From positions 1 through 58,423 of the forward strand of contig JALOOM010000013.1 of assembly GCA_025454395.1 (NCBI GenBank): a DNA stretch of 58,423 bases. Reading direction: 5' to 3'. The notes beneath the pieces were generated by a model, which saw only the letters and a program-made list of their open reading frames with translations, was not told where the DNA came from and ran no database searches. Below are positions 7,867 through 45,355 of the stretch, piece after piece. This stretch comes from Elainella sp. Prado103. Lineage in GTDB: Bacteria; Cyanobacteriota; Cyanobacteriia; Elainellales; Elainellaceae. Each line of letters starts with the position of its first letter. Positions within the stretch are counted from its first letter, which is position 1. The position numbers and the translations under genes were made by a program.

Positions 7867-8769
7867 TTAAGCAACTGATTTTGATGAGCGTTGTTTGATC
7901 AGAGCCATCACAACATAATAGTAAACTGTAAACAAAACCCCTGAAAAGATTTGTCCACCCCACATCCCATGCCAGAAATCAAAAGTTGCTCTGCCCCAAT
8001 ACGCTTCTGATAAAGCCAGGAGCATAATTCGAGGCACGTTAAACAGCAGTGCCAGTACTACTCCAACGGTGACCATGCCAACAACTTTGAGCATACTTTG
8101 TTTCAAAAATAGGCCTAGCAGTAAACTGGCAACCCCCATGGTTACTGCCATATCAAATCCATTACACCCCCATCTCACATCAACCGTACCACCGGGCAGG
8201 GCAATAATCGTATCTTCCAATGTGGCAGGTTGACCAATTGCTCGTAACCCTAAGTTTCCTCCCCAGGCCATCAATCGTTCTAACATGAGGGGGGGCAAAA
8301 AAGCTTCCCACAATGCTTGCCCAAGGCGAAAGGGTTCCGGAATTAAGCCGATGGCGATCAAAAAGACTGGCAACGGGTTCATTCTAAAAAAGCCCAGCCC
8401 CCAACAGCTACAAGCAATGCCCAGGAGAATGATTGTCCAGTCCAGTCTTTGAGACCATTCAGCCCCAAAAGCAACTGGAGCTAGAATCACACCACCTATG
8501 ATCAGCATGTGTCCGAAGAGTTGATCCGCCTCTGAGACTTGCAGTTTCGCCAACTGATATCGCTTGAGCCAGAGCATGTGCAAACCTAGACCGATCGAGC
8601 AAGTCATGAGAATACTAGGCATTCCCCGCAGGGTCGCATTGATCAGATCAAGCAATCGGCCAGGCAAATAGCAGAATCCTACTAAGAGCCCACAACTGAC
8701 AATTCGGTTGTGAGGAGTTCTCAAGCTTTCACGCCAGATATTTTTAGTGATTTGCCTTACCTGTTTCAC
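7867..8769 (-). CDS. Exosortase (cyanoexosortase, probably type C)
   Basis: A 300-residue polytopic membrane protein of the exosortase/archaeosortase family, which cleaves and sorts proteins carrying PEP-CTERM-like tails and often sits beside exopolysaccharide genes. The three conserved catalytic positions are visible: Cys202 in RWGCNGFD, Arg247 in FNVPRIMLL, and His267 in DFWHGMWGG. About eight hydrophobic helices cover the rest. The start is GTG, 6 bp after the stop of the HpsJ-like gene, so translation is likely coupled. The adjacent target-like protein with a PTPA tail and the HpsJ-like partner point to one of the cyanobacterial subtypes; type C is my best memory-based guess and needs a profile search. 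Confidence 0.88.
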   Translation of the reverse strand: MKQVRQITKNIWRESLRTPHNRIVSCGLLVGFCYLPGRLLDLINATLRGMPSILMTCSIGLGLHMLWLKRYQLAKLQVSEADQLFGHMLIIGGVILAPVAFGAEWSQRLDWTIILLGIACSCWGLGFFRMNPLPVFLIAIGLIPEPFRLGQALWEAFLPPLMLERLMAWGGNLGLRAIGQPATLEDTIIALPGGTVDVRWGCNGFDMAVTMGVASLLLGLFLKQSMLKVVGMVTVGVVLALLFNVPRIMLLALSEAYWGRATFDFWHGMWGGQIFSGVLFTVYYYVVMALIKQRSSKSVA

Positions 8770-8775
8770 GTTATA

Positions 8776-9384
8776 TCACACTCTACTTCTACGAAGGTTG
8801 ATCCCATAGCGTCCCAAGCTAACCAGACCCAAACCAACAACGATTAAGTTAGCGATACTGGCTGCACCTGTTTTAAGCACAGTGGCTTTGGCATTTTGTT
8901 TCAGTGAGCTGGTCTGATTTGCTAACAGCCGCGAAGCTTCTCTTAAATCCTCTGAGGTCACATTTTCACCTACAGCACTAGGATTATCTTGAGCATTTTG
9001 AATTTGAGTTTGTAGCTGGGAAGCCTGGTTGCTAATATTAGTGATCGCTTGCTGTTGCAGCTTCAATCCATCCGCAATAACTAACAAGCAAGACAGGAAG
9101 AAAATCACGCCTGTGATCAAACAAAGCGTAGAAATCCGCTTCAACCAACGTCGATTTTCGAGGTTACCAAAAATTAATAATGCCGCCCCTATAAACAAAA
9201 CAATGCTGCGATCCGACATTTGCTGAATAATGCTAATTCGCCATTCCACATTTCCTAGTTGGGGAGGTAAGGCCAAAATCAGCATGCCCATTAGGAAACC
9301 CAATAAGCAAACTAAACCGACGATCTGGCAGATGGCTTTAGCACCATAAGAGGCATTGGGGGTAGAAGAAGAGACAGATGCCAT
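8776..9384 (-). CDS. hpsJ: HpsJ-like membrane protein, exosortase partner
   Basis: A 202-residue membrane protein that resembles HpsJ of the cyanobacterial hormogonium polysaccharide locus and the HpsJ-like proteins encoded next to cyanobacterial exosortases. It has four hydrophobic segments (about residues 16-41, 58-72, 86-106 and 171-190). A polar, Gln/Asn-rich, probably coiled-coil stretch at about residues 108-165 lies between the third and fourth. Its role is not known at the reaction level; its constant pairing with exosortases suggests help in sorting or in coupling to polysaccharide. It is followed by the exosortase gene after 6 bp. Similarity was judged by layout and neighbourhood, not by a search. 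Confidence 0.72.
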   Translation of the reverse strand: MASVSSSTPNASYGAKAICQIVGLVCLLGFLMGMLILALPPQLGNVEWRISIIQQMSDRSIVLFIGAALLIFGNLENRRWLKRISTLCLITGVIFFLSCLLVIADGLKLQQQAITNISNQASQLQTQIQNAQDNPSAVGENVTSEDLREASRLLANQTSSLKQNAKATVLKTGAASIANLIVVGLGLVSLGRYGINLRRSRV

Positions 9385-9630
9385 AACAAGAATTGTGGTT
9401 GTAAATGAATTAAACGTTGAATGAGGAGGAGCGCAGAATGATCGACGAACTCAATTCGAAACAAAATCAAACAGAACCTAAGGAATTCAGACAGACTACT
9501 CAAGCCTGTCTGAATTTTAAGATGAATGCAACCGTTAGATAGTCATTGCATCCACATCCAGCTATGTAAAGGCTTCAGAAACTTCAGCTCCTCCTCCGGA
9601 TATTATCCGAAGATATTACCTTAGTCTCAT

Positions 9631-10263
9631 CTAAGCATTCACAGTTTCAGGCTGTTCTACCTCTTTCTGCTTACGCTTACGCAACGTAGCTAGCGCCATT
9701 CCCGCCAAACCGGGCAGTAATGCAGGAGTTGGCACGGTTACAGTGCTGGAGAAAGCAGAACCTCGTCTTTGAATGAATGACCGGCCTTGAGCAGTAAACT
9801 CTCCCACACCAGGATTAGGCAAATTGCTGAAGAAGCCCGAATAATCAGCTTGGAAAATGTTGTTAGTCCTTGTTAGCACAAACGACTGTAATGAGTAGGT
9901 TGCTCCACCTAAAAGCCCACTGATAAAATCGACTCCATCAGCGACACTTGCAAGTTGCCAGGTATTGGCACCCGTTTTGGTCAGTTTCAGATCTTTTAGC
10001 GTAATCGCATCACCCGCATTGCCAAATAGTGGATCCGTAGGATTGACAATTTCTCCTGTTCCGGTTCCAACAGTAGTGCTGTTGATGCCATTATCGAAAG
10101 CTGCAAAATCTAGAACACTGGTGCCAGGAGCTACAACATTTGCATTCTTCAATCGGGCTGTACCCGTAAAGTTGAGCGTGAACGCATCCGCTGGTGCGGC
10201 TGTAACCACACCGGCTACTGAAGCAGCTAACGCTGCGCCTACTGCAAACTGTTTAAAGTTCAT
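9631..10263 (-). CDS. Secreted protein with PTPA-type C-terminal sorting signal
   Basis: A 210-residue exported protein. A signal peptide covers about residues 1-27 (AAPADAF at the cleavage region). The C-terminus has the three-part sorting signal: PTPA at residues 178-181, a short hydrophobic helix LLPGLAGMALATL, and a basic cluster RKRK at 195-198. A polar tail of about 12 residues after the cluster is longer than usual. This is the PTPA variant of the PEP-CTERM signal; the likely processing enzyme is the exosortase two genes downstream. The body is beta-rich without a recognised domain. TAGGTAGGTG upstream of the ATG gives a good ribosome binding site. Confidence 0.85.
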   Translation of the reverse strand: MNFKQFAVGAALAASVAGVVTAAPADAFTLNFTGTARLKNANVVAPGTSVLDFAAFDNGINSTTVGTGTGEIVNPTDPLFGNAGDAITLKDLKLTKTGANTWQLASVADGVDFISGLLGGATYSLQSFVLTRTNNIFQADYSGFFSNLPNPGVGEFTAQGRSFIQRRGSAFSSTVTVPTPALLPGLAGMALATLRKRKQKEVEQPETVNA

Positions 10264-10639
10264 GGTTTCACCTACCTAAAGATGTATCAATCATTCACAA
10301 ATCATGGAACTGGATAGGCCACCAATTAAGATTACAAAAGTGGATCAATCACTTCTGTGAGGTAGAGCTAATCATGAAATGAGAGCAAGGACTCATCACC
10401 TCTAGCCTGATTGATAGTCAGACTCAACAACAACCCTGTTAATCATTAGCAGCCTAATAGAGCACCTAGAGTAAATCAATAGTTTTGATCCTGGTTTTAA
10501 CCAATGAGTGAAAATGGATATTCACTCATATCGCAGCAACCTTTAAGCTAGAGGTTTCCTGCATTCGTTTGCTTCACAGAGACTGTCGTTCAATCTACGA
10601 CCATGCAACCGATCAAAACTCACCCTGATTGCCGTGAAG
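10264..10639. other. Intergenic region upstream of the PTPA-tail gene
   Basis: This 376-bp gap lies between two minus-strand genes and must hold the promoter of the PTPA-tail gene and the end of the GT4 transcript. I see no RNA gene, no clear terminator and no repeat array. Confidence 0.4.
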
Positions 10640-11959
10640 TCAAACCTTGAAAACACACTGTTTCAAGACTGTTAGGTACTGATCTGCAATGATCTCGGGC
10701 GTGAAGTGAGATTGCAGATAGCGCCGCCCTGCTCTGCCCATCCGTTCAGTCATCTGCCGATCCTGCTGCAGGAGACGGATAAAATTTGCCAGTTTGGTCG
10801 CATCACCATTCTCAAAGGTGGCACCACATTTCGCCTCAGCAATGAGTTGATTGAGATAGGCCTGTTTAGGACAAATCACTGCGATCGGACGACCAGCAGA
10901 CAGAGCAGAATATAACTTACTGGGAGCCACCAAGCTATCCATCCCCGGACTAACACTTACTAAAGAGAGATCGCAGGCGGTGAGTGAGTAGGGCAATACT
11001 TCTTTATCTTGATAAGGCAAAAACAGAAAATTCGTTAAGCCAATTTCTGCGACCTTTTGCATCAGGGTTTCTCGTTTCGCCCCATTGCCAATACAGACAA
11101 ACTGGATCGGTTCATCTCGCAACAAGATTGCTGCTTCTAGCATGGTATCAATATCATGGCAACGCCCCAAATTACCAGAATAAAGCACCGTAAAGGGTTT
11201 GATCAGACGATGCTTCATGGCAAACCAGTTTTCTGTTTTGGGGATCGGCACAATGGTTTCCGAATCTGCCCAACTATGAATCACAGAAATTTTGTGGGCG
11301 ACCTCTGGACAGCAATTAGCGACTCGTTGTTGCATTGCAGGGCTGAGCACAATAATTCCTTCTGCATGTTTCCAAACCTGCTCATTTAGAGAGTGCCAGA
11401 GTCGGGTTAGCCAATGCCGACGCGAAACCACACCCAACTCAACAGCAATATCAGGATAGAGATCATACAGCAAACAAATATAAGACATCCCAAATAGCAG
11501 GTGAGCCAAATAACCAACGATCGGTAAGAAGGGCGGTGCCGTTGTCACCAAAACCAAATTACGATGGCGACAATTTCTCAGCAAATGTAACACTGCACGA
11601 ACCATAAAGAGAATGCCATTAACCGCCTTACCTCGAATTCGCTTTGGCCATAATTGGGAAGTACGGGATCGCTTGATTTTTACAGTACCCACTTGCTCAA
11701 AGGCAGGAGCTGAAGTCGATTCAAAGGCATAGCCTGGTTGACCTGTAAAGACTTTGACATCAACTCCCTGTCGTCCCAATTGGCGCACCAACTCTTCAAT
11801 TAGTTGTCCAGTGGCAGCAAAATCAGGTGGGAAAAACTGAGTTATCACAGACAGTTTCAGAGCCTGATCAATTTCCTTCAGAAAACGGGGCTTCGTTCTC
11901 GGATTTGCGGTATCTAGAGAAACGTAGGTTGCTTTTGGAATCTGGTAATTCAGTTTCAC
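10640..11959 (-). CDS. Family 4 glycosyltransferase (WcaI-like)
   Basis: A 439-residue GT-B enzyme. The N-terminal half has LSVITQFFPPDFAATGQLIE at about residues 33-52, the pattern found in WcaI-type colanic-acid glycosyltransferases. The C-terminal half has VLYSGNLGRCHDIDTML near residues 262-278 and SLVAPSKLYSALSAGRPIAV near residues 342-361, the sugar-nucleotide site. The start is GTG; a 30-residue basic leader precedes the conserved core, so a later start is possible. It stands alone, 376 bp before the PTPA gene and 186 bp after the WecA-like gene, and probably adds one of the first sugars to the lipid carrier. Confidence 0.88.
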   Translation of the reverse strand: MKLNYQIPKATYVSLDTANPRTKPRFLKEIDQALKLSVITQFFPPDFAATGQLIEELVRQLGRQGVDVKVFTGQPGYAFESTSAPAFEQVGTVKIKRSRTSQLWPKRIRGKAVNGILFMVRAVLHLLRNCRHRNLVLVTTAPPFLPIVGYLAHLLFGMSYICLLYDLYPDIAVELGVVSRRHWLTRLWHSLNEQVWKHAEGIIVLSPAMQQRVANCCPEVAHKISVIHSWADSETIVPIPKTENWFAMKHRLIKPFTVLYSGNLGRCHDIDTMLEAAILLRDEPIQFVCIGNGAKRETLMQKVAEIGLTNFLFLPYQDKEVLPYSLTACDLSLVSVSPGMDSLVAPSKLYSALSAGRPIAVICPKQAYLNQLIAEAKCGATFENGDATKLANFIRLLQQDRQMTERMGRAGRRYLQSHFTPEIIADQYLTVLKQCVFKV

Positions 11960-36727: not shown

Positions 36728-39700
36728 TTAATTTTGGGTCGATTGAATGGAAATTTGCAGGTTGCTAAATGGCAACGGCAGATTGATCGTCCCTTCGGGT
36801 AGAAATCGCGGGGCAATCAACAAGAACATGCCGAGCAGAACCACCAGTGCGCCGAGGAGCCATGGATTGAGTTTATACCCCCCTGTAGGACGCTGTAGCA
36901 AGTTCCGCAGAAGCTGGATGATCGCCAGTGTAATGATCAAAACCAGCAGAAACTGCGGCAATCGACTGACCAAAAAGGCGACACCGCCGATGATCACCAC
37001 TGGCAAAATCCAGGACGGGATCGATCGCAGTAAGGCCGGTAGAAAGGGAGCTTTGGGATTTTTAGACTGAGTCCATAAATAAAATCCTTGCAGGAGCCGA
37101 TTGATGAAGCGAAATGTCGTGGTGTTACGAAGTCGATCCCCCGTGGGAGGAGCATTGAGAATATCACGCACCACTAATCCAGTTTTGGCCAGCAAATCTT
37201 CTAGAACAACAGTGGGAACATCTTGGGCTAGTTTCTCCGAACCGACTCGATAAGTATTGCGGAAATAATCATCAATTTGATCCAGATTTTGGACTAAATT
37301 CTGGACTGGCTCCTTGGCCAGTTCTTGGATGGCAAAGGGGGTGATTGCGCGATCGAAATAGCCCGACATCGGTTCATATTTGGGCTTCAGACGGTTCAGC
37401 ACATCCATCAATTGCTGTTCCAATCGGCTCAAAGTAGCATGTACCCTCGTATCGACATCACACTGTTTCAATTCGCATTGTTTGGCTGTATTTAATCGCC
37501 GGAAGAATTCATAGAGCTGATCGATCGATCGATCGGTCGGTAATGTTTGCATGAGCTGGCTCAAGCGCTGCAAGTTCTGCGGATCGGATTGCTGAGCATG
37601 GTAGAAAGCCGTTTCCAAGAGGGTTTGAGGTGCATTTTTCTCAAGATACTTTTGGGCCTGCTGAGGACGAGGGCTCAGTAAGCTCAACAAAAATCCGGTT
37701 AATTGATCGAGCGCCAATTGCTGCTCTGGAGGCGACACTTTCTGTGGCTCCGATCCAGTCAGTAAGGATAGGGCTTGCGGCAATACCTTTTGAGGTTGGG
37801 AAGAGTTGCCCAGGTTAGAGGCAGCGATCGGTTGGGTGAGTTTCAGTTGAGCAATCATTTTCTGGAAACCTTGCTGGTCAGGCTTCACCAACTGCTGGTT
37901 CCAGTCAATCTGCTCAGCCATCGTGTCTTGCAAAACATTCTGCAAATCTGATTTCAGGATCGATCGCTGCCCAGCCGTCACCAAGGTATTGAGGAACTGA
38001 GCGAACTCTCGATCGGTGAGCGGATCCGCCAAGCGGGCTGGGTTGTCTACGGGTAAGTCGTGAGGATCAGCAAGGGTGGCCAAGCGAGTCAGCGCTTTGA
38101 GTAGTAGCTCCCGTTCCAGGGGTAGGGCAGCGGGTAAGGCATCCTGCAACAATTGGGACAAATAAAACTCAATTTTTTCTCCTGCGCTGGCATTGGGATG
38201 ACCAGGCACTTGCACATCCGGTAATTGCCGCTGAATGAAGGCAGGAAAGCGCTGGATTGCGGCTGGAGTCAGCAATGCTTCCACAATCCGGTTGACCCCA
38301 TCTAACCGCCCCCACAAAATATCGTTGGATCGCCAGGACTTTTTGAAGAAGCCACCAAAAGCATTCAGTTGATCGCCCGCCAGTTTATCCGCCAAGCCTC
38401 TATTTTTACCAAAGCCTAGCTGAGCGGCATCTGGACTAATCTGTACCACTTCAACCTGCTCTTTCGCTTGAATATCCGATAGATATTCATAGGAATAAAC
38501 TTCTTCATCAATAAATCGGAAACTCTGAAAGGTATCTAATAATTGCTCTGACTGCAAACTGCCACAGGATCGAATTAACTGCTCTGATAATTGTTCAACT
38601 TTACGCAAAATGCTAGAGTAATACTCGCTATCGTTCTCCGAACCCGATCGATAGGTATATTTCTGATTGCGCCACAAGGTTTGCTCAGGGAGTGGATCCA
38701 GTTGATCTTTACGCCCCAATTGTCCGGCTCGCTGTAATCCCAGCATCTGATCATCTAACAGACGAGCTTTTGCTTGTAGTTGCAGCAGAACCCCTGAAAT
38801 TTCCTGGGGTGTAAGCTCACGAGTCAGGTTATGAAAGAAATCGACTGGGATCGCGGCTGGTCGATCCATCGTTGTGGGTTCATCAATCGCCAAAGCCCGT
38901 TGGGGCTGCTGCTCAGGTTCAAAGGGCACCAAGCCATCCGCATCTAAGAGAAATCGATGTAATCTCAGTAAATACTGATAGATATAGATTCGTGTATCTT
39001 TGCGAGTATTCCGATCGTCACTTTGCAACATCTCATCGGGCGAGAAGATATCTCTGGGATCGGGTAATTGATCCTGACTCGCTTCATCAATCAGGGCGTA
39101 GAAAGTGCGGCTGACTGGCTCGGAAGTCAACATTTTGTCCAGCGCAAACTGGATCACTTCCAGCAATTTGATCTGATTGCCAATTTGCGTAGCTAAGGTT
39201 TTAAGATTACCATGCTCTGTATCCAAAGCCTGCACCGATCCAGGATGACCAAGATCCGTCATGGATTGGCAGATTTTTTCTAGCAAGAAAAAGTGCTTCC
39301 GCAAAGCATAATCCACATCCAGGTTACGAATTTTCCGCCCCAGATCGTGGAGAAACTCTTCCCGCTCTGCTTGATGTTTTTGATCAGCAATGTACTTGGT
39401 AATCAGTTGTGCCGCCTGCTCCAGCAGCTTTTGTTTATCTTGACTGGTGAAACCATTGGTGGCATTCAAGTTGCCAATCTGATCAATCCGCAGCAACAAC
39501 GGCAATACCCGATCGCGCAATCGCACCAACCGACAGCGCAGATAAACCTGCTGGGACTTGGGAATCTCGTCTTCCGACACAGCCGGAGAGGCGTGGGTTA
39601 GCTGTTTCCGAGCCTGCTCCAGCTTAATTTTACCTGTCCGCTCTGCCGTACCTCGCAAAAACTTATACCGTAGCACCCGTTCATTGCGATCCTTAATGTC

Positions 39701-40855
39701 TTGCAAATCGCCCGCAATGCTTTCATAACGCGGTAGTCCCACCAGCGAATCGGCCACCGTTTCCCAAATATTGGGCTTCGCCATTTGATTAAACTTGGGA
39801 CTATTGAGGAATCGATCGGGACTGGGATCGATGTAAAACAGTTTCCGAGTCACGGGGCGATAGGCAACCCGATAATAAATTTGGCGGATCGTGTAGCTGA
39901 AAGGACGGTTATCCAGCACCCCTCCATCCACAAAATGGAGCTGATAGCCCGTTTTCGGTTTTTTCAGCGGCAATTCGCGATTGGTCAGTTGCCCCCAATA
40001 CACCAGTCGGCGATCGATTTCACTGACGGGAGCCAATTGGCTTGGATTACCCTCGATCGGGACTGGCAATTGCACACTCACAACCGGAAATGCCACCGGG
40101 AAACAGGAAGTAATGCGACACAGGGTTCCCAACGCCTGTTGATTTTGAGGGTTGGGTTGGAAGGGTTCTTTCCGTCCCTGCCGGTGCTTCAGTAAGAAAA
40201 CTGTGCGATGATCTTTGACTTCGATCAAAGAACCGGTATTATCGAAGGCTCGCGAAACTCGACCCAATGTATCTGTGCCGGTGACAAACAGATCGAGTTC
40301 ATCGGCTGGAGAATACCATTCAGACTCAATTTGATGAACATTCTCAGTTCGTTTGTCCCAGGCTTCTTTAAAGGCTCCCGCTAATTGTTGTTGATAAAAG
40401 CCTTCACCATTCAAGAGAGAATTGGTCGTTCCTTCGCCATCTTGAAAACCATTCATCCGCAACTTGAGGTCGGGAGTCCGCAGAAGCTGCTTAATATCTC
40501 CGCTATCCCGCCAGATATTGGCAAAATTCTTAAAATCAACCGCTCTTGTTTCGTTGCTGTTCGCCAAGGCATAACTTAATAGCACCCCATTAATGCCACC
40601 GGCCGATGTCCCGGAAATCACATCCACCACAATATCGGAATCCGTGAGCGCTTTGACCAGCTTATAGATTCCCCGCCCTCGGACGGCATTGTAGAACTCA
40701 CGGCAGACCCCGTTCATGTAAATCGCCAGAGACACGCCGCCATAAACGACCAATCCTAGCCGTGCTTCATGCCGAAACTCCGGTTTATCTTGCGATTGAT
40801 CCTGTCGCACTTGTGAGGAAGAGGCTGGATCGATGGCGCGGGATAGATTCTGCAT
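36728..40855 (-). CDS. Large patatin-like phospholipase (patatin/DUF3376 type)
   Basis: A 1375-residue protein. The patatin domain (about 30-330) has the oxyanion-hole region LVVYGGVSLAIYMNGV (36-51), the nucleophile elbow GTSAGG with Ser84, and the catalytic Asp310 in VDGGVLDNRPFS, so the Ser-Asp dyad is intact. It also shows YSPADELDLFVTGTDTLGR and RITSCFPVAFPVV, typical of the long patatin-related family. A helical, Gln-rich region of about 900 residues follows, then two to three membrane helices near 1285-1355. The enzyme would free fatty acids from membrane lipid. It is the last gene after the lipoxygenase and P450-like genes on the same strand, 194 bp behind the P450, and may supply their substrate. 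Confidence 0.88.
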   Translation of the reverse strand: MQNLSRAIDPASSSQVRQDQSQDKPEFRHEARLGLVVYGGVSLAIYMNGVCREFYNAVRGRGIYKLVKALTDSDIVVDVISGTSAGGINGVLLSYALANSNETRAVDFKNFANIWRDSGDIKQLLRTPDLKLRMNGFQDGEGTTNSLLNGEGFYQQQLAGAFKEAWDKRTENVHQIESEWYSPADELDLFVTGTDTLGRVSRAFDNTGSLIEVKDHRTVFLLKHRQGRKEPFQPNPQNQQALGTLCRITSCFPVAFPVVSVQLPVPIEGNPSQLAPVSEIDRRLVYWGQLTNRELPLKKPKTGYQLHFVDGGVLDNRPFSYTIRQIYYRVAYRPVTRKLFYIDPSPDRFLNSPKFNQMAKPNIWETVADSLVGLPRYESIAGDLQDIKDRNERVLRYKFLRGTAERTGKIKLEQARKQLTHASPAVSEDEIPKSQQVYLRCRLVRLRDRVLPLLLRIDQIGNLNATNGFTSQDKQKLLEQAAQLITKYIADQKHQAEREEFLHDLGRKIRNLDVDYALRKHFFLLEKICQSMTDLGHPGSVQALDTEHGNLKTLATQIGNQIKLLEVIQFALDKMLTSEPVSRTFYALIDEASQDQLPDPRDIFSPDEMLQSDDRNTRKDTRIYIYQYLLRLHRFLLDADGLVPFEPEQQPQRALAIDEPTTMDRPAAIPVDFFHNLTRELTPQEISGVLLQLQAKARLLDDQMLGLQRAGQLGRKDQLDPLPEQTLWRNQKYTYRSGSENDSEYYSSILRKVEQLSEQLIRSCGSLQSEQLLDTFQSFRFIDEEVYSYEYLSDIQAKEQVEVVQISPDAAQLGFGKNRGLADKLAGDQLNAFGGFFKKSWRSNDILWGRLDGVNRIVEALLTPAAIQRFPAFIQRQLPDVQVPGHPNASAGEKIEFYLSQLLQDALPAALPLERELLLKALTRLATLADPHDLPVDNPARLADPLTDREFAQFLNTLVTAGQRSILKSDLQNVLQDTMAEQIDWNQQLVKPDQQGFQKMIAQLKLTQPIAASNLGNSSQPQKVLPQALSLLTGSEPQKVSPPEQQLALDQLTGFLLSLLSPRPQQAQKYLEKNAPQTLLETAFYHAQQSDPQNLQRLSQLMQTLPTDRSIDQLYEFFRRLNTAKQCELKQCDVDTRVHATLSRLEQQLMDVLNRLKPKYEPMSGYFDRAITPFAIQELAKEPVQNLVQNLDQIDDYFRNTYRVGSEKLAQDVPTVVLEDLLAKTGLVVRDILNAPPTGDRLRNTTTFRFINRLLQGFYLWTQSKNPKAPFLPALLRSIPSWILPVVIIGGVAFLVSRLPQFLLVLIITLAIIQLLRNLLQRPTGGYKLNPWLLGALVVLLGMFLLIAPRFLPEGTINLPLPFSNLQISIQSTQN

Positions 40856-40868
40856 AGATGCCTCAGTA

Positions 40869-40934
40869 AGTTATCTGAATAGTTACCTGAAAGTTATCTG
40901 GATAGTTATCTGGATAGCTAGCAGTTATCTGGAT
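40869..40934. repeat. 12-bp imperfect tandem repeats
   Basis: Five copies of AGTTATCTGGAT, two with changes and one set off by AGCTAGC, lie just upstream of the patatin start. Confidence 0.65.
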
Positions 40935-41000
40935 ATATATCGATCAGGGCACAATAAAATACAAGAGAAGAACAGTCGAATAGAGACCAACCGATGTTCA

Positions 41001-41040
41001 GGAAGCCTCAGGAAGCCTCAGGAAGCCTCAGGAAGCCTCA
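41001..41040. repeat. 10-bp tandem repeat, four perfect copies
   Basis: GGAAGCCTCA occurs four times without change, followed by a broken fifth copy. It starts 10 bp beyond the stop of the P450-like gene, in the gap to the patatin gene. Confidence 0.8.
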
Positions 41041-41049
41041 GGAAACCAG

Positions 41050-42396
41050 TTAATGGCGGCGAACTTGCCCCAGCGTGATCAGCACATCGATCAACATTTC
41101 GAGAGCCACTTCTTTACCAGGACAGATGCGTCCGGCATGACGATCGCCCACCGAGTGGAACCCCATGTGATAGGGGCAGAGATTTTCCCGCTGGGGATCA
41201 AATTCGTAGGTCGTTGCCCCCCAGAAGCCCTGATCAAGGAGCCCAAGACTCATTGGGATCAAGATTTTGGTGCCAGCCGGAAAGGTGCGCTCGATCCCTG
41301 CAACTGTAGCTGTAAAAGGTTCGGTTGCTACCCGATGGCTGGCACTGACCGGAGCCCAAAGCCGCGCACATTCCAATAAAAATCCCTGGACGGCTGCTCG
41401 ATCGGTCAAATCCAGGGCATCCCATTGTTGCGTAATATCGATCGTATCTGTTTGTTGGTTTTCATAAGCGGGTAGGGGACGGAAACCCATAGCGGTGTAA
41501 CCCAGATGCAACGGCCCCTGCAAGGCAGCAATTCCCATAATCGCTGTCATCAGTTTGGCTAACTCACGACGAGACATGCCATTGTAGTCAGGGTTATTTT
41601 CCACAAAATTAGCTAAAGCCGGAGATTGCTCATAGATTGTGGCAGCTCGCTCGATCAGATCGGGCAAATCTTGATGCCCCAATAGGTTCAAGCTTTCGAG
41701 TAGTTTGCCGATTTCTGCCAGGTAATGCAACGGGCTCAGGCGAGTGTAATGCAAATCAGTCAGTAGAGTGATCGCATCACGATCATCCGGGTTGATACCA
41801 AACATCACATAGTGAAGATATCGCACTAAGAAGCCCATCCAGCCTCGTTGATCATCGGTGAAAAAAGCACCACCCGCATCATGGGGCATCGTTGCATAGT
41901 CAGCCGCCAACTGATCGAGGAGCCGACGGGCGATCGGATCGCGTTGACGATCAACCGTCGCCACATTCAACAGATAGGTCTGCAAACAGGCGCGAAAGGC
42001 GGCATGATCACTGATGGCTTTTCCCGCTTCCTCATCCGACAAAGACAACAGGAAAACATTCCGCCCTCCCCCCTCCAAGTTGGGAGCCTGATGAGCATCC
42101 AGGATGGAAGTACCCAATCGCCAAGTGCGAGCTTGCGGCGAAGTTAAGGCCGCTTCCACCGAGGCAAACTCCCCCATGACCACCTGCCCGGCGCAACAGA
42201 AGTTGGCACCCAGCGCCCGCCGTTTGGTATCTAGATAAGTCGGTTCATTCGCCACTAATCCTTCCACAAAACTGATCAGTGGCATTAGGGTCTTGCTTAA
42301 GCCCTCCTCCGGATTTTGCAATGCCCAAGCTTGAAATTCGTTGAGGGCCGGATCGAGCAGGGAGGAGAAAATACTTTCTAGATTATTGAAATTCAT
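41050..42396 (-). CDS. P450-like haem-thiolate protein, probable hydroperoxide-using type
   Basis: A 448-residue cytochrome P450-like protein. The K-helix ExxR is ECAR (Glu342, Arg345). The haem loop runs from Phe413 (FHSVG) to GDRHAGRICPGK, with the ligand Cys425. The loop has seven residues between the last Gly of SVG and the Cys, longer than the usual FxxGxxxC and equal in spacing to peroxygenases of the CYP152 kind. The I-helix region (about 282-305, AIMGIAALQGPLHLG) lacks the acid-Thr pair needed to activate dioxygen. So it probably acts on a peroxide rather than with a reductase. It follows the lipoxygenase gene by 53 bp, which would supply a fatty-acid hydroperoxide. The product (allene oxide, aldehyde, epoxide or alcohol) cannot be told. 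Confidence 0.82.
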   Translation of the reverse strand: MNFNNLESIFSSLLDPALNEFQAWALQNPEEGLSKTLMPLISFVEGLVANEPTYLDTKRRALGANFCCAGQVVMGEFASVEAALTSPQARTWRLGTSILDAHQAPNLEGGGRNVFLLSLSDEEAGKAISDHAAFRACLQTYLLNVATVDRQRDPIARRLLDQLAADYATMPHDAGGAFFTDDQRGWMGFLVRYLHYVMFGINPDDRDAITLLTDLHYTRLSPLHYLAEIGKLLESLNLLGHQDLPDLIERAATIYEQSPALANFVENNPDYNGMSRRELAKLMTAIMGIAALQGPLHLGYTAMGFRPLPAYENQQTDTIDITQQWDALDLTDRAAVQGFLLECARLWAPVSASHRVATEPFTATVAGIERTFPAGTKILIPMSLGLLDQGFWGATTYEFDPQRENLCPYHMGFHSVGDRHAGRICPGKEVALEMLIDVLITLGQVRRH

Positions 42397-42449
42397 GGGT
42401 AGAGTGCCAGTACAGTATCTGAATGAGTGTGAATATCTAAGGTTAATGT

Positions 42450-44927
42450 TTAGATATTGATACTCTGGGGAATATTCTTGGGCTTCAGGTATTCGTATTT
42501 ACGGCGATTCTGATTCCGTTTATCGATGATCTCGTTAATTTCTTCCAGACGATCCTGGAATTTCTTCAGTAGCGCACTGACCTTGGCATCCACGAAATGG
42601 TTGTCCTCATAGTATCCCAGCTTCGTGAAATAGACCGATCCCAACAAATACAGCAGATTCAACTGGGCCTGGGCCTGATCCAGAGGGGGGAGGAAGTCGA
42701 GCCAGTCGGGTGAGGGAGCCCCCTGAGTCACCGCCGGAGCATATCCCGCCGTGGGCATGGCAGGCGCAAAGCTCATAATGTCATATTGGGGAAAGTTGAC
42801 CGCTGCATGTTGAGCACTGGCAGTGAAGATCAGCATGGTGATGGCATCGATTAAATAATCAAGCGTTTCGATTTTGCCTGACTCCTGATTGCCAAAACCA
42901 GGCACCCGTCCCCCTTCAAACGACACCAACTCTGCCGCCCAGCGTTGTAGAGCCTCATCCTGCTGTACCTCCTGATCCGAGCCATAGTAAAGCCGGAGAT
43001 AGGCAGCCACCCAATCCTGGATCGCCGCCCAAACCAGCAATGCATCATCACGGTAGGGATAAATCGGTAGCACCGTTGGATCATCCACGCCCCGATCCCG
43101 CAATTGTTGCGGCAGCATATCGGCATTGAACCCACGGGACAGAAACCCTTTCACAATCAGCACTCGCGACGTATCGATCGTAGCAGAGAGCAATCGATTC
43201 ACGCCTCCCTTGGGTGCCACCAACATCCCTTTTGCTGAGTCATTGATCGCCAAGGTGCCCTGAAAATGGGGGATTAAAAGTTTGAAGAGCGGATGAGTAT
43301 CTGGAAATTGACGATGGGTGGCCACAACAAAGGGTTCGATCAGCAAATGGGTGCGGGCAAAGTGCGCCACCGCCTCATGGAAATTGACATCTGCAATCTG
43401 GACGATCGTTTTAGCCGTTAGCCAGGCCGGGTCACCCGCGGCGGGAGTAATCACAGGATACCGCTGTGGATCTTGTCCACATTGAATGGCAATCGGTCGC
43501 AGCAACCCACCATCGATCGGCACCGCAAACAGGGCCAACGGAGCGTAGAGATATTTTTGGACTTGGGGATTAGTGCCAAAACTACCACCTAGGGCTCCAT
43601 CTAAAATGCCATAGTCTGCCAGATAAACCCGTCCTGCTTGGATTGCCGCTTGTAAGGAATCTTCCGCTCCCATCACGGCCTGAAATTGGGCTGTCGTAAC
43701 CGGAAATCTGGGATCGATCGCCGTCATCCGTTTAATCATAGCTGGATTCGGGCCGGCCACCCGCAGCCAGGCAAAGGTTTCATCGGTTTGAAAGGTGTTG
43801 GCAATTTCTGGTAATTCAATATAAGCGAACAACTTACGATAATCTTCTAAGCTGGTCGGACGACCGATCGGCGCTTGTGCTTTTAGCCCTTCCAGCAAGC
43901 GATTCGCAAAGGGCTTAATAAAATCTGCTCCCAATACCTTAACGAGATTAGAAGACATAAACTTCTCAATCTCAGATTCATTTGCAGGAACATTCTGGAC
44001 TAATCGCTGGAGCGCTGTCTCTACCCCATCTGCCACCTGGGACTTCACTGCCGCCGAGGGAGCATTTTGCAGCATTGCGGCTGTTTCTGGGCTTTGAATC
44101 CGTACCGTTGGCAGGGTAGGATCCACCGCAGTCACAGCAGGAGCAATCGCAGCAGGATCTAGAGTGGCACTGGTCGTCCCAGTCTGAAGCCGCACAGAAG
44201 CCTCGATCCCTTTCGCTACTTCCAGCGCTGCATGAGTGGGCGGCATTCCCTGCAGGGTCTCAACCGCCGATTCCACCAAGGGTAATCCTTGGGCAAGTTG
44301 CTGCGCGGCCAAATCGATCCCCTTTGCCGCTTCAATCTCAGCATTGATCGGTGCAAGACGAGCAACTCCAACCGCGCTGGGATCTAACCCACTGGCATTT
44401 GTCCCACTCCCATCGCCAGTCCCTGGAACCGCAGGGGGGAGATCGTCCAACAGTTTTTCAATGGCGATCGCAATCCCCGCTTCGAGCTGCACTGCATCGG
44501 CTGGAACCCCCACTCCATCGATCGATCGGGTACTCGGTTTCGGCGGTTGTGCGGGAGACTGATTGGACTGACTTCGGAGTAGCTCCGGCAAAAACCCGAT
44601 CAGCGCCCCCACCAATTTTAATTTCAGCGCAGGCCCTTGATCTTGCAATGTATCTCGCAGGGTTTGCCGCAAAAATTCCCGCACATCATCTTCTACCCCA
44701 GCGGCTCCCTGATCACCCCGATTGGCAATGAGCGTATTAATTGCCAGATTGATCGCTTGTTTCGCCGTCAAAGCCAACCAGGGAGGTGAAAAATTTTCAT
44801 GCTGAGGCAATGTGCTAGACATCGCCACAGGCTCAATATGGGTATAGCTATAGGTATAAAGATGCGCTTCTGCGTCTAACGGAGAATGCGGCGCAGGTTG
44901 CTGGCGAGGGGAACTTGTATCAACCAT
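42450..44927 (-). CDS. Lipoxygenase with long N-terminal helical extension
   Basis: A linoleate-type lipoxygenase, about 825 residues from the ATG at 44927, which has GAGG 6 bp upstream; other in-frame starts lie at 44969 (ATG) and 44987 (TTG). Numbering from the earliest start, the metal ligands are all present: HEAVAHFARTH with His542 and His547, QHAAVN with His727 and Asn731, and the C-terminal Ile845 (SINI). ATHRQF and LIPHFQGTLAIN are family marks. No PLAT domain is seen; residues about 90-340 are Ala/Pro-rich with repeated helical units (GIDLAAQQL, GIEASVRL, GVETALQRL). It inserts dioxygen into polyunsaturated fatty acids. It is the first gene of the set with the P450-like gene (53 bp) and the patatin gene. 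Confidence 0.92.
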   Translation of the reverse strand: MVDTSSPRQQPAPHSPLDAEAHLYTYSYTHIEPVAMSSTLPQHENFSPPWLALTAKQAINLAINTLIANRGDQGAAGVEDDVREFLRQTLRDTLQDQGPALKLKLVGALIGFLPELLRSQSNQSPAQPPKPSTRSIDGVGVPADAVQLEAGIAIAIEKLLDDLPPAVPGTGDGSGTNASGLDPSAVGVARLAPINAEIEAAKGIDLAAQQLAQGLPLVESAVETLQGMPPTHAALEVAKGIEASVRLQTGTTSATLDPAAIAPAVTAVDPTLPTVRIQSPETAAMLQNAPSAAVKSQVADGVETALQRLVQNVPANESEIEKFMSSNLVKVLGADFIKPFANRLLEGLKAQAPIGRPTSLEDYRKLFAYIELPEIANTFQTDETFAWLRVAGPNPAMIKRMTAIDPRFPVTTAQFQAVMGAEDSLQAAIQAGRVYLADYGILDGALGGSFGTNPQVQKYLYAPLALFAVPIDGGLLRPIAIQCGQDPQRYPVITPAAGDPAWLTAKTIVQIADVNFHEAVAHFARTHLLIEPFVVATHRQFPDTHPLFKLLIPHFQGTLAINDSAKGMLVAPKGGVNRLLSATIDTSRVLIVKGFLSRGFNADMLPQQLRDRGVDDPTVLPIYPYRDDALLVWAAIQDWVAAYLRLYYGSDQEVQQDEALQRWAAELVSFEGGRVPGFGNQESGKIETLDYLIDAITMLIFTASAQHAAVNFPQYDIMSFAPAMPTAGYAPAVTQGAPSPDWLDFLPPLDQAQAQLNLLYLLGSVYFTKLGYYEDNHFVDAKVSALLKKFQDRLEEINEIIDKRNQNRRKYEYLKPKNIPQSINI

Positions 44928-45355
44928 GAGATGCCTCATCATACAGAGTAGTGATCCAACCGGAATCATCTGATTTACTTTAAGCAATCAGGTGACTCAA
45001 TTACAGTACCCTCACAGGTACTATTACCTCGCAATCAACCTCGCAATCAACCTCGCAGAGGATTCATGAAGGGCTCACGCAGGGCTCACGCAGGCAAGCC
45101 TGGATGAAACGAAATTCAGGAAAGCAGTGCTACCTCGATCCAAGCAGCCTTGGTGACAGATGACAAACAATTGACGTAAAAATTAAACTAGCGATCAAGC
45201 GAGACAACGCCCCTGGGATCGCAGTGGTGACCTGGGATCGCAGCGGTTGTGAGGTCATCCCCATCGCTGTCCAATTAGAACCGAGCCCAATCCATCTCTC
45301 CATTCAGCAACGCCAGAATTATCCTAAGGATAGCCAGCAATGATTTCAAAATATT
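44928..45355. other. Intergenic region upstream of the lipoxygenase
   Basis: It contains two ACCTCGCAATCA copies (45026-45049), two GGGCTCACGCA copies (45071-45092) and a CTGGGATCGCAG duplication near 45210-45245. The promoter of the lipoxygenase set should lie here; none could be assigned. No gene or RNA was recognised. Confidence 0.4.

Follow-up and report, generated by a model that had tools for sequence, protein, structure and literature searches.

In the LOX/CYP74 cascades of plants, animals and proteobacteria, the product of a lipoxygenase (LOX) is passed to a P450 (AOS, HPL, DES or EAS) that requires neither O2 nor a reductase and carries a Cys ligand and an E-R-R triad. The features given for the CYP74 clan, in the available text of one source, are an I-helix Asn, a nine-residue insertion in the haem domain, the ERR triad, the Cys ligand and a PPV domain (PMC8124189). 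The bacterial members named in the parts available of that source and of a second one are proteobacterial (Methylobacterium) (PMC8124189, PMC10813956). Catalase-related AOS-LOX fusions, from the cyanobacteria Anabaena and Acaryochloris marina and from coral, likewise couple a LOX with a haem partner, by which the hydroperoxide is rearranged (PMC8124189, PMC11507377, available text). In fungal dioxygenase-CYP fusions (LDS, EAS, AOS), a hydroperoxide-making enzyme is coupled to a self-sufficient CYP, and the available text notes that the axial Asn is missing in some fungal-fusion CYPs or hydroperoxide-cleaving P450s (PMC13049297). For cyanobacterial LOX or dioxygenase, the hydroperoxide partners named in the available portions of four sources are catalase-related only (PMC11719350, PMC8124189, PMC13049297, PMC11507377). 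One of these, a review, describes the cyanobacterial mini-LOX CspLOX2, as far as its available text goes, without a P450 partner (PMC11719350). The main text of a survey of cyanobacterial P450s, in the form available, mentions neither lipoxygenase nor oxylipin nor CYP74 (PMC7014017). In a literature search that covered subscription journals thinly, we recognised no description of a cyanobacterial LOX-P450 pair.

The locus described here lies in a 58,423-nucleotide stretch (the window) of contig JALOOM010000013.1 of Elainella sp. Prado103. An initial annotation of this DNA had read three consecutive minus-strand genes, for a LOX, a P450-like protein and a patatin, with gaps of 53 and 194 bp, and our coordinates agree. 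The LOX open reading frame (845 aa, 42450..44987, minus strand) begins at a TTG; an in-frame ATG lies at 44969, the end that the initial annotation had given. It is followed, after a gap at 42397..42449 (53 bp), by a P450-like haem-thiolate protein (448 aa, 41050..42396, minus strand) and, after a second gap at 40856..41049 (194 bp), by a large patatin-like phospholipase (1375 aa, 36728..40855, minus strand). One promoter-like match (9/12, minus strand, 42410-42382) spans the end of the LOX-P450 gap, inside which no terminator-like site was listed. Tandem TGAGGCTTCC words and repeats of CAGATAACT occur in the P450-patatin gap, as does a single weak terminator-like hairpin at 40993-40973. Over the region there was no excess of promoter-like sites (7, against a mean of 10.0 in shuffles) or of terminator-like sites (10, against 10.8), and these counts speak neither for nor against an operon.

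The LOX is the only copy in the window genome and a clear member of its family (PF00305, E 1.4e-61, 209.3 bits against a cut-off of 23.6). PF00305 is the only Pfam family found in the 845-aa protein at E <= 0.01, and at that threshold no fused catalase-like domain was found; unlike in the catalase-related AOS-LOX fusions, the partner here is a separate protein of P450 fold. The catalytic part that matches PDB entries, residues 368-845, matches fatty-acid lipoxygenases, best 8x8f (E 2.4e-123). It contains H537, H542, H727, N731 and the C-terminal I845, which we take to be the iron ligands of a LOX (three His, Asn and a C-terminal Ile), all of them present as first proposed. An N-terminal stretch of ~165 aa (residues ~138-303, by tblastn break points) is unmatched in the LOXs L040-L042, which are linked to a second type of P450 introduced below.

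Assigning the middle gene was less direct. Against the Pfam P450 profile (PF00067) the window protein scores 12.9 bits, under the cut-off of 22.8, and two of its homologues are likewise below it (11.5 and 12.8 bits). With the single sequence, a phmmer search of PDB yielded nothing but BM3-type P450s (E 0.05 to 1.2), and no P450 was matched there by a profile of 18 window-type (A1) sequences. A second P450 type was therefore used as a bridge. Three proteins of this second type clear the Pfam cut-off (60.5-71.5 bits), and hhalign relates the window type to the second family with a probability of 97.3 and E 2.3e-11 over 357 columns. A predicted model of the window P450 is of low confidence (pLDDT 57, pTM 0.62); with it, 49 of the 50 Foldseek rows listed are named P450, CYP or AOS (best E 1.0e-3), the remaining one, 9kpu, having no family name. 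VIA on the same low-confidence model matched P450s with Z up to 14.0 (rmsd 4.7, 283 aligned), CYP74A structures (Z 13.3-13.8) being tied with other P450s such as CYP143 (14.0). The hhalign match, the low-confidence fold and the invariant ExxR and Cys support membership of the P450 superfamily. A chance open reading frame is ruled out by 17 homologues that are 59-77% identical. A P450 tree separates the two types by a very long branch (4.85 changes per column to each side of the root); the relation between them consequently rests on hhalign and on common neighbours, not on the tree.

E342 and R345 (the ExxR, 342-345), R403 and C425 are invariant in the 18 window-type sequences, and on our reading R403 would be the third residue of the ERR triad. 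The window type thus has the triad and the Cys ligand of CYP74. In place of PPV it has APV (WAPV, with P349 and V350 invariant); the second type has an invariant YPPV. In alignment, Ala-Gly of the second type falls opposite the D-T pair of CYP76AH1, and hhalign carries this position onto Gln293-Gly294 in the window type, each pair being invariant within its own type. On this alignment the O2-activating acid-alcohol pair is missing from both types, and the earlier proposal that the P450 has no oxygen-activation motif is backed in this transitive way, through the second type. The I-helix Asn of CYP74, looked for in the six-residue groove, is absent from both types (IAALQGPL at 289-296 in the window, IAGTAGTS in the second type). 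Neither type has the nine-residue haem-loop insertion: at the insertion site guayule AOS is eight residues longer than the second type, and between the conserved Arg and Cys the window type exceeds the second type by five residues. Because these two defining features are missing, we rejected CYP74 membership and do not file the protein as a CYP74. The description of the set as plant-like in the initial annotation stands as analogy only. Searched against PDB, the second-type profile meets ordinary P450s first (2.3e-8), then CYP74A2 (3dam, 1.6e-6) and then CYP152 (1.2e-5). By analogy, the window P450 most likely acts like a CYP74 though it lies outside the CYP74 definition applied here.

The neighbourhood of the P450 was compared across 22 window-type loci, counting the window and after merging stretches from one contig; L021 was retained among them though identical to L020 in both P450 and LOX. 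Homologues of 59-77% identity lie at 16 loci of the contig collection searched. Counting its own genome in each case, the window type occurs in 4 of 40 relatives (one of the relatives, G002, belongs to the same genus as the window genome in a kinship comparison) and gives strong matches in 8 of 386 cyanobacterial genomes. Three further matches in the 386-genome sample (E 2e-4 to 9e-4) are of the second type, which is itself found in 8 of the 386 at E <= 1e-30. A LOX lies near the window-type P450 at 10 of the 22 loci (the window, L006, L007, L008, L015, L020, L021, L037, L038 and L039). In L008 the LOX is split over two frames, and in L015 (Gloeocapsa) LOX and P450 are convergent with a broken hydrolase in between. 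At the other 12 loci, which count against the pairing, the fetched stretch contains no LOX; eight of them carry a gene of 185 aa and four (L016, L017, L018 and L032) neither of the two, the contigs of L017 and L018 being short (3.3 and 4.4 kb). A LOX is present elsewhere in the genome in G009, G076, G135, G368 and G386. All eight second-type genomes show the order LOX, P450, 185-aa gene, with the P450 directly downstream of the LOX; one locus, L042, has two second-type P450s in tandem. A P450 of another kind was met by chance beside the LOX in L076.

The LOX-P450 pairing is beyond chance, as it recurs in distant genomes. A LOX was found in 57 of the 386 cyanobacterial genomes and in all 16 that bear a P450 of either type (8 window-type and 8 second-type; none has both at the thresholds used). 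Fisher's test, which ignores shared ancestry, gives p = 7e-15 for the co-occurrence by genome; by genus it gives 3e-6, with the same disregard of ancestry (LOX in 8/8 genera with a P450 against 32/143). Besides the first loci, 60 more LOX stretches were fetched, several ending at contig ends. The LOX tree has 49 rows (50 before removal of one duplicate), each above 150 bits and covering more than 400 query positions, with short or split LOXs such as that of L008 left outside it. The window-type-linked LOXs fall in three branches. In one, a clade of the window, L006 and L007 sits inside a 13-row set (99% support) together with all eight second-type LOXs. In another, L015, itself on a long branch, pairs with L020 (support 90). 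In the third, L037-L039 group together, and the L037 LOX matches PDB 5med, which we take to be CspLOX2, over its full length (E 9.2e-140). The window-type label needs 4 changes on this tree, against a shuffled mean of 7.6. On account of these three branches we rejected a single origin of the pair by descent of the LOX. Counting against the pairing, for 33 of the 49 rows neither P450 type lies in the stretch fetched, L075 among them, whose LOX is nearly identical to P450-linked ones.

Two further genes recur beside the P450. The 185-aa gene adjoins the window-type P450 at 8 of 22 loci (downstream in L009-L014 and L034, upstream in L019) and, since it adjoins the second type too, it ties the two types together. 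No Pfam family was found in the three members scanned, and a profile search with the family returned a single match, at E 0.48. A model built from five rows is of low confidence (pLDDT 47) and gave no fold match, the best Foldseek E being 0.29. The gene was absent from the window genome and from G002, G009, G017, G278, G184 and G190 in a search that found it in G127, G135 and G062. The other neighbour is an alpha/beta hydrolase that follows the P450 in L032 (genome G009), with an epoxide hydrolase as best PDB match (E 8.9e-36). A broken relative, in two pieces of 64% and 72.5% identity, follows the P450 in the Gloeocapsa locus, so that an epoxide-hydrolase-like gene follows the window-type P450 in two lineages, one copy being broken. 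Within the window genome the best relative shows 33% identity and lies on another contig.

LOX and P450 are a real conserved unit, a variant of the known LOX/hydroperoxide-P450 kind. For the whole set we favour, with a probability of about two in three (0.66), a cyanobacterial oxylipin pathway predicted from sequence, in which the LOX would make a hydroperoxide, the P450 would rearrange it without O2 or reductase, and in the window's family the patatin would supply the fatty acid. As family knowledge and the intact dyad suggest, the patatin may free the fatty acid; the LOX, as its family and ligand residues indicate, would then dioxygenate a polyunsaturated fatty acid, the presumed substrate, to the hydroperoxide. 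The P450, whose fold and haem Cys are supported, would take this hydroperoxide as its only oxidant. Its product would most likely be of the epoxide type (allene oxide or epoxy alcohol), which we favour because an epoxide-hydrolase-like gene adjoins the P450; chain cleavage would be less likely. The epoxide-hydrolase-like enzyme or the conserved ~185-aa protein would probably receive the product in other lineages. Such a pathway would resemble the LOX/CYP74 cascade, from which it differs in that its P450s have neither the Asn of the I-helix nor the insertion of nine residues. It would also resemble the fungal fusions, which use a haem dioxygenase instead of a LOX and are fused instead of encoded by neighbouring genes. 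The oxylipin set first proposed thus holds for a LOX with a hydroperoxide-type P450, through conserved neighbourhood and co-occurrence; its patatin arm is weaker.

In our judgement there is somewhat less than an even chance that the unit consists of LOX and P450 only, with the patatin as a bystander or a lipase under its own regulation. The protein itself is well assigned (PF01734, E 8.1e-14; DUF3376, PF11856, E 1.6e-34; TIGR03607, 448.4 bits against a cut-off of 262.45). Its Ser84/Asp310 dyad is intact as the initial annotation had stated, with GTSAGG starting at 82 and DGGVLDN at Asp310. By eye, its C-terminal segments are hydrophobic. The patatin adjoins the P450 at only 2 of the 22 loci, the window and L006 of its congener Pegethrix, and in the other 20, some of them on short contigs, it is non-adjacent. 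The hairpin within the 194-bp gap, weak as it is, also fits independent regulation. TIGR03607 is over its cut-off in 6 of 40 relatives (G000, G002, G009, G015, G017 and G037), two of which (G015 and G037) have no P450. It is over cut-off in 3 of the 386 phylum-sample genomes, among which only the window's has the P450, and in none of the seven that carry the P450 but belong to other families. Against a bystander, in Pegethrix the patatin lies downstream of the P450 with only 28 bp from the P450 stop to its first possible start, and all four P450-bearing relatives have the patatin, against 2 of the 36 others. For this association Fisher's test, ignoring ancestry, gives p = 1.6e-4 over the 40 relatives and 4.0e-4 within the 25 of the family. 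In two of the four, however, the patatin is on another contig: G009 has LOX, P450 and patatin spread over three contigs, and the patatin of G017 is apart from LOX and P450. We conclude that the patatin is probably a lineage-limited partner of the LOX-P450 unit.

Other rivals concern the chemistry. In CYP152 peroxygenases Arg-Pro replaces the acid-alcohol pair, and the lack of that pair would fit a peroxygenase or hydroxylase here as well, one that would draw on a peroxide, either H2O2 or the product of the LOX, for hydroxylation or epoxidation of a second fatty acid. For the second-type profile, matches to CYP152A1 and to fatty-acid peroxygenases (E 1.2e-5 to 1.6e-4) are in the range of those to CYP74A (1.6e-6 and 4.6e-4). 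Where the I-helices align, however, we see no Arg-Pro in either type (Gln-Gly-Pro in the window, Ala-Gly-Thr in the second type). The link with a hydroperoxide-making enzyme is more readily accounted for if the P450 consumes the hydroperoxide itself, and we regard a peroxygenase as unlikely, even with the report, in the available text of the survey, that cyanobacterial CYP110A1 binds fatty acids (PMC7014017). Very high divergence from other P450s and unusual invariant residues could instead mark a protein that protects by destroying lipid hydroperoxides, or an inactive binding or regulatory subunit of the LOX. The haem Cys, ExxR and third Arg, invariant in 18 sequences, argue for a retained haem enzyme, and the epoxide-hydrolase-like neighbour suggests a defined product, which makes this reading improbable. 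The pair might also act on something other than free C18 acids, for example intact membrane lipids or an isoprenoid. The extra N-terminal stretch of the window LOX would leave room for this, as sequence does not reveal a substrate, but the match of residue 368 to the C-terminus with fatty-acid lipoxygenases of PDB renders it improbable.

If the favoured oxylipin pathway is taken further, these cyanobacteria might hold a complete and independent counterpart of the jasmonate route of plants, in which a LOX, a non-CYP74 P450 making an allene oxide and a dedicated cyclising or opening partner (the 185-aa family or the epoxide hydrolase) would lead to cyclopentenone-type or diol signals; we consider this extension distinctly unlikely. 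The 185-aa family is nevertheless a concrete candidate partner of unassigned fold. Should the proposed pathway be true, it would offer chemists new hydroperoxide-rearranging enzymes and would bear on the origin of plant oxylipin signalling. The phylum would gain a P450 branch of the LOX cascade, formed by a family that escapes the general P450 profile and is tied to LOX in distant cyanobacteria.

A conserved gene family of ~185 aa adjoins P450 genes of both cyanobacterial types tied to lipoxygenase (LOX), the window type and its distantly homologous second type. Its members lie at loci L009-L014, L034, L019, L040-L042, L098, L103, L104, L107 and L111, and the three that were scanned gave no Pfam match. 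At L042, two tandem second-type P450 genes (8134-10918), 73% identical to each other, are placed between the LOX and the 185-aa gene.

The window LOX (42450-44987, minus strand) carries a stretch of ~165 aa (residues ~138-303) that contains degenerate repeat-like words. In sequence matches of the window LOX, this stretch had no counterpart in the second-type-linked LOXs of L040-L042; matches to the LOXs of L006 (Pegethrix) and L007 run across it. Within the gap between the window P450 and patatin genes (40856-41049), copies of TGAGGCTTCC stand in tandem and CAGATAACT words recur.

Other arrangements were also observed. In a Gloeocapsa MAG, an epoxide-hydrolase-like gene flanked by a P450 and a convergent LOX (L015:4480-5400) is disrupted by frame changes and stops. 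The window-type P450 of genome G009 has two canonical P450s as neighbours, in surroundings (L032:3403-14972) that resemble a metabolic island. Around it, genes resembling short-chain dehydrogenases and flavin monooxygenases were also recognised by eye. In genome G311, a canonical P450 (PF00067, E 6.4e-77) adjoins a LOX belonging to another branch (L076:4220-7707), possibly representing a further kind of LOX-P450 pair.
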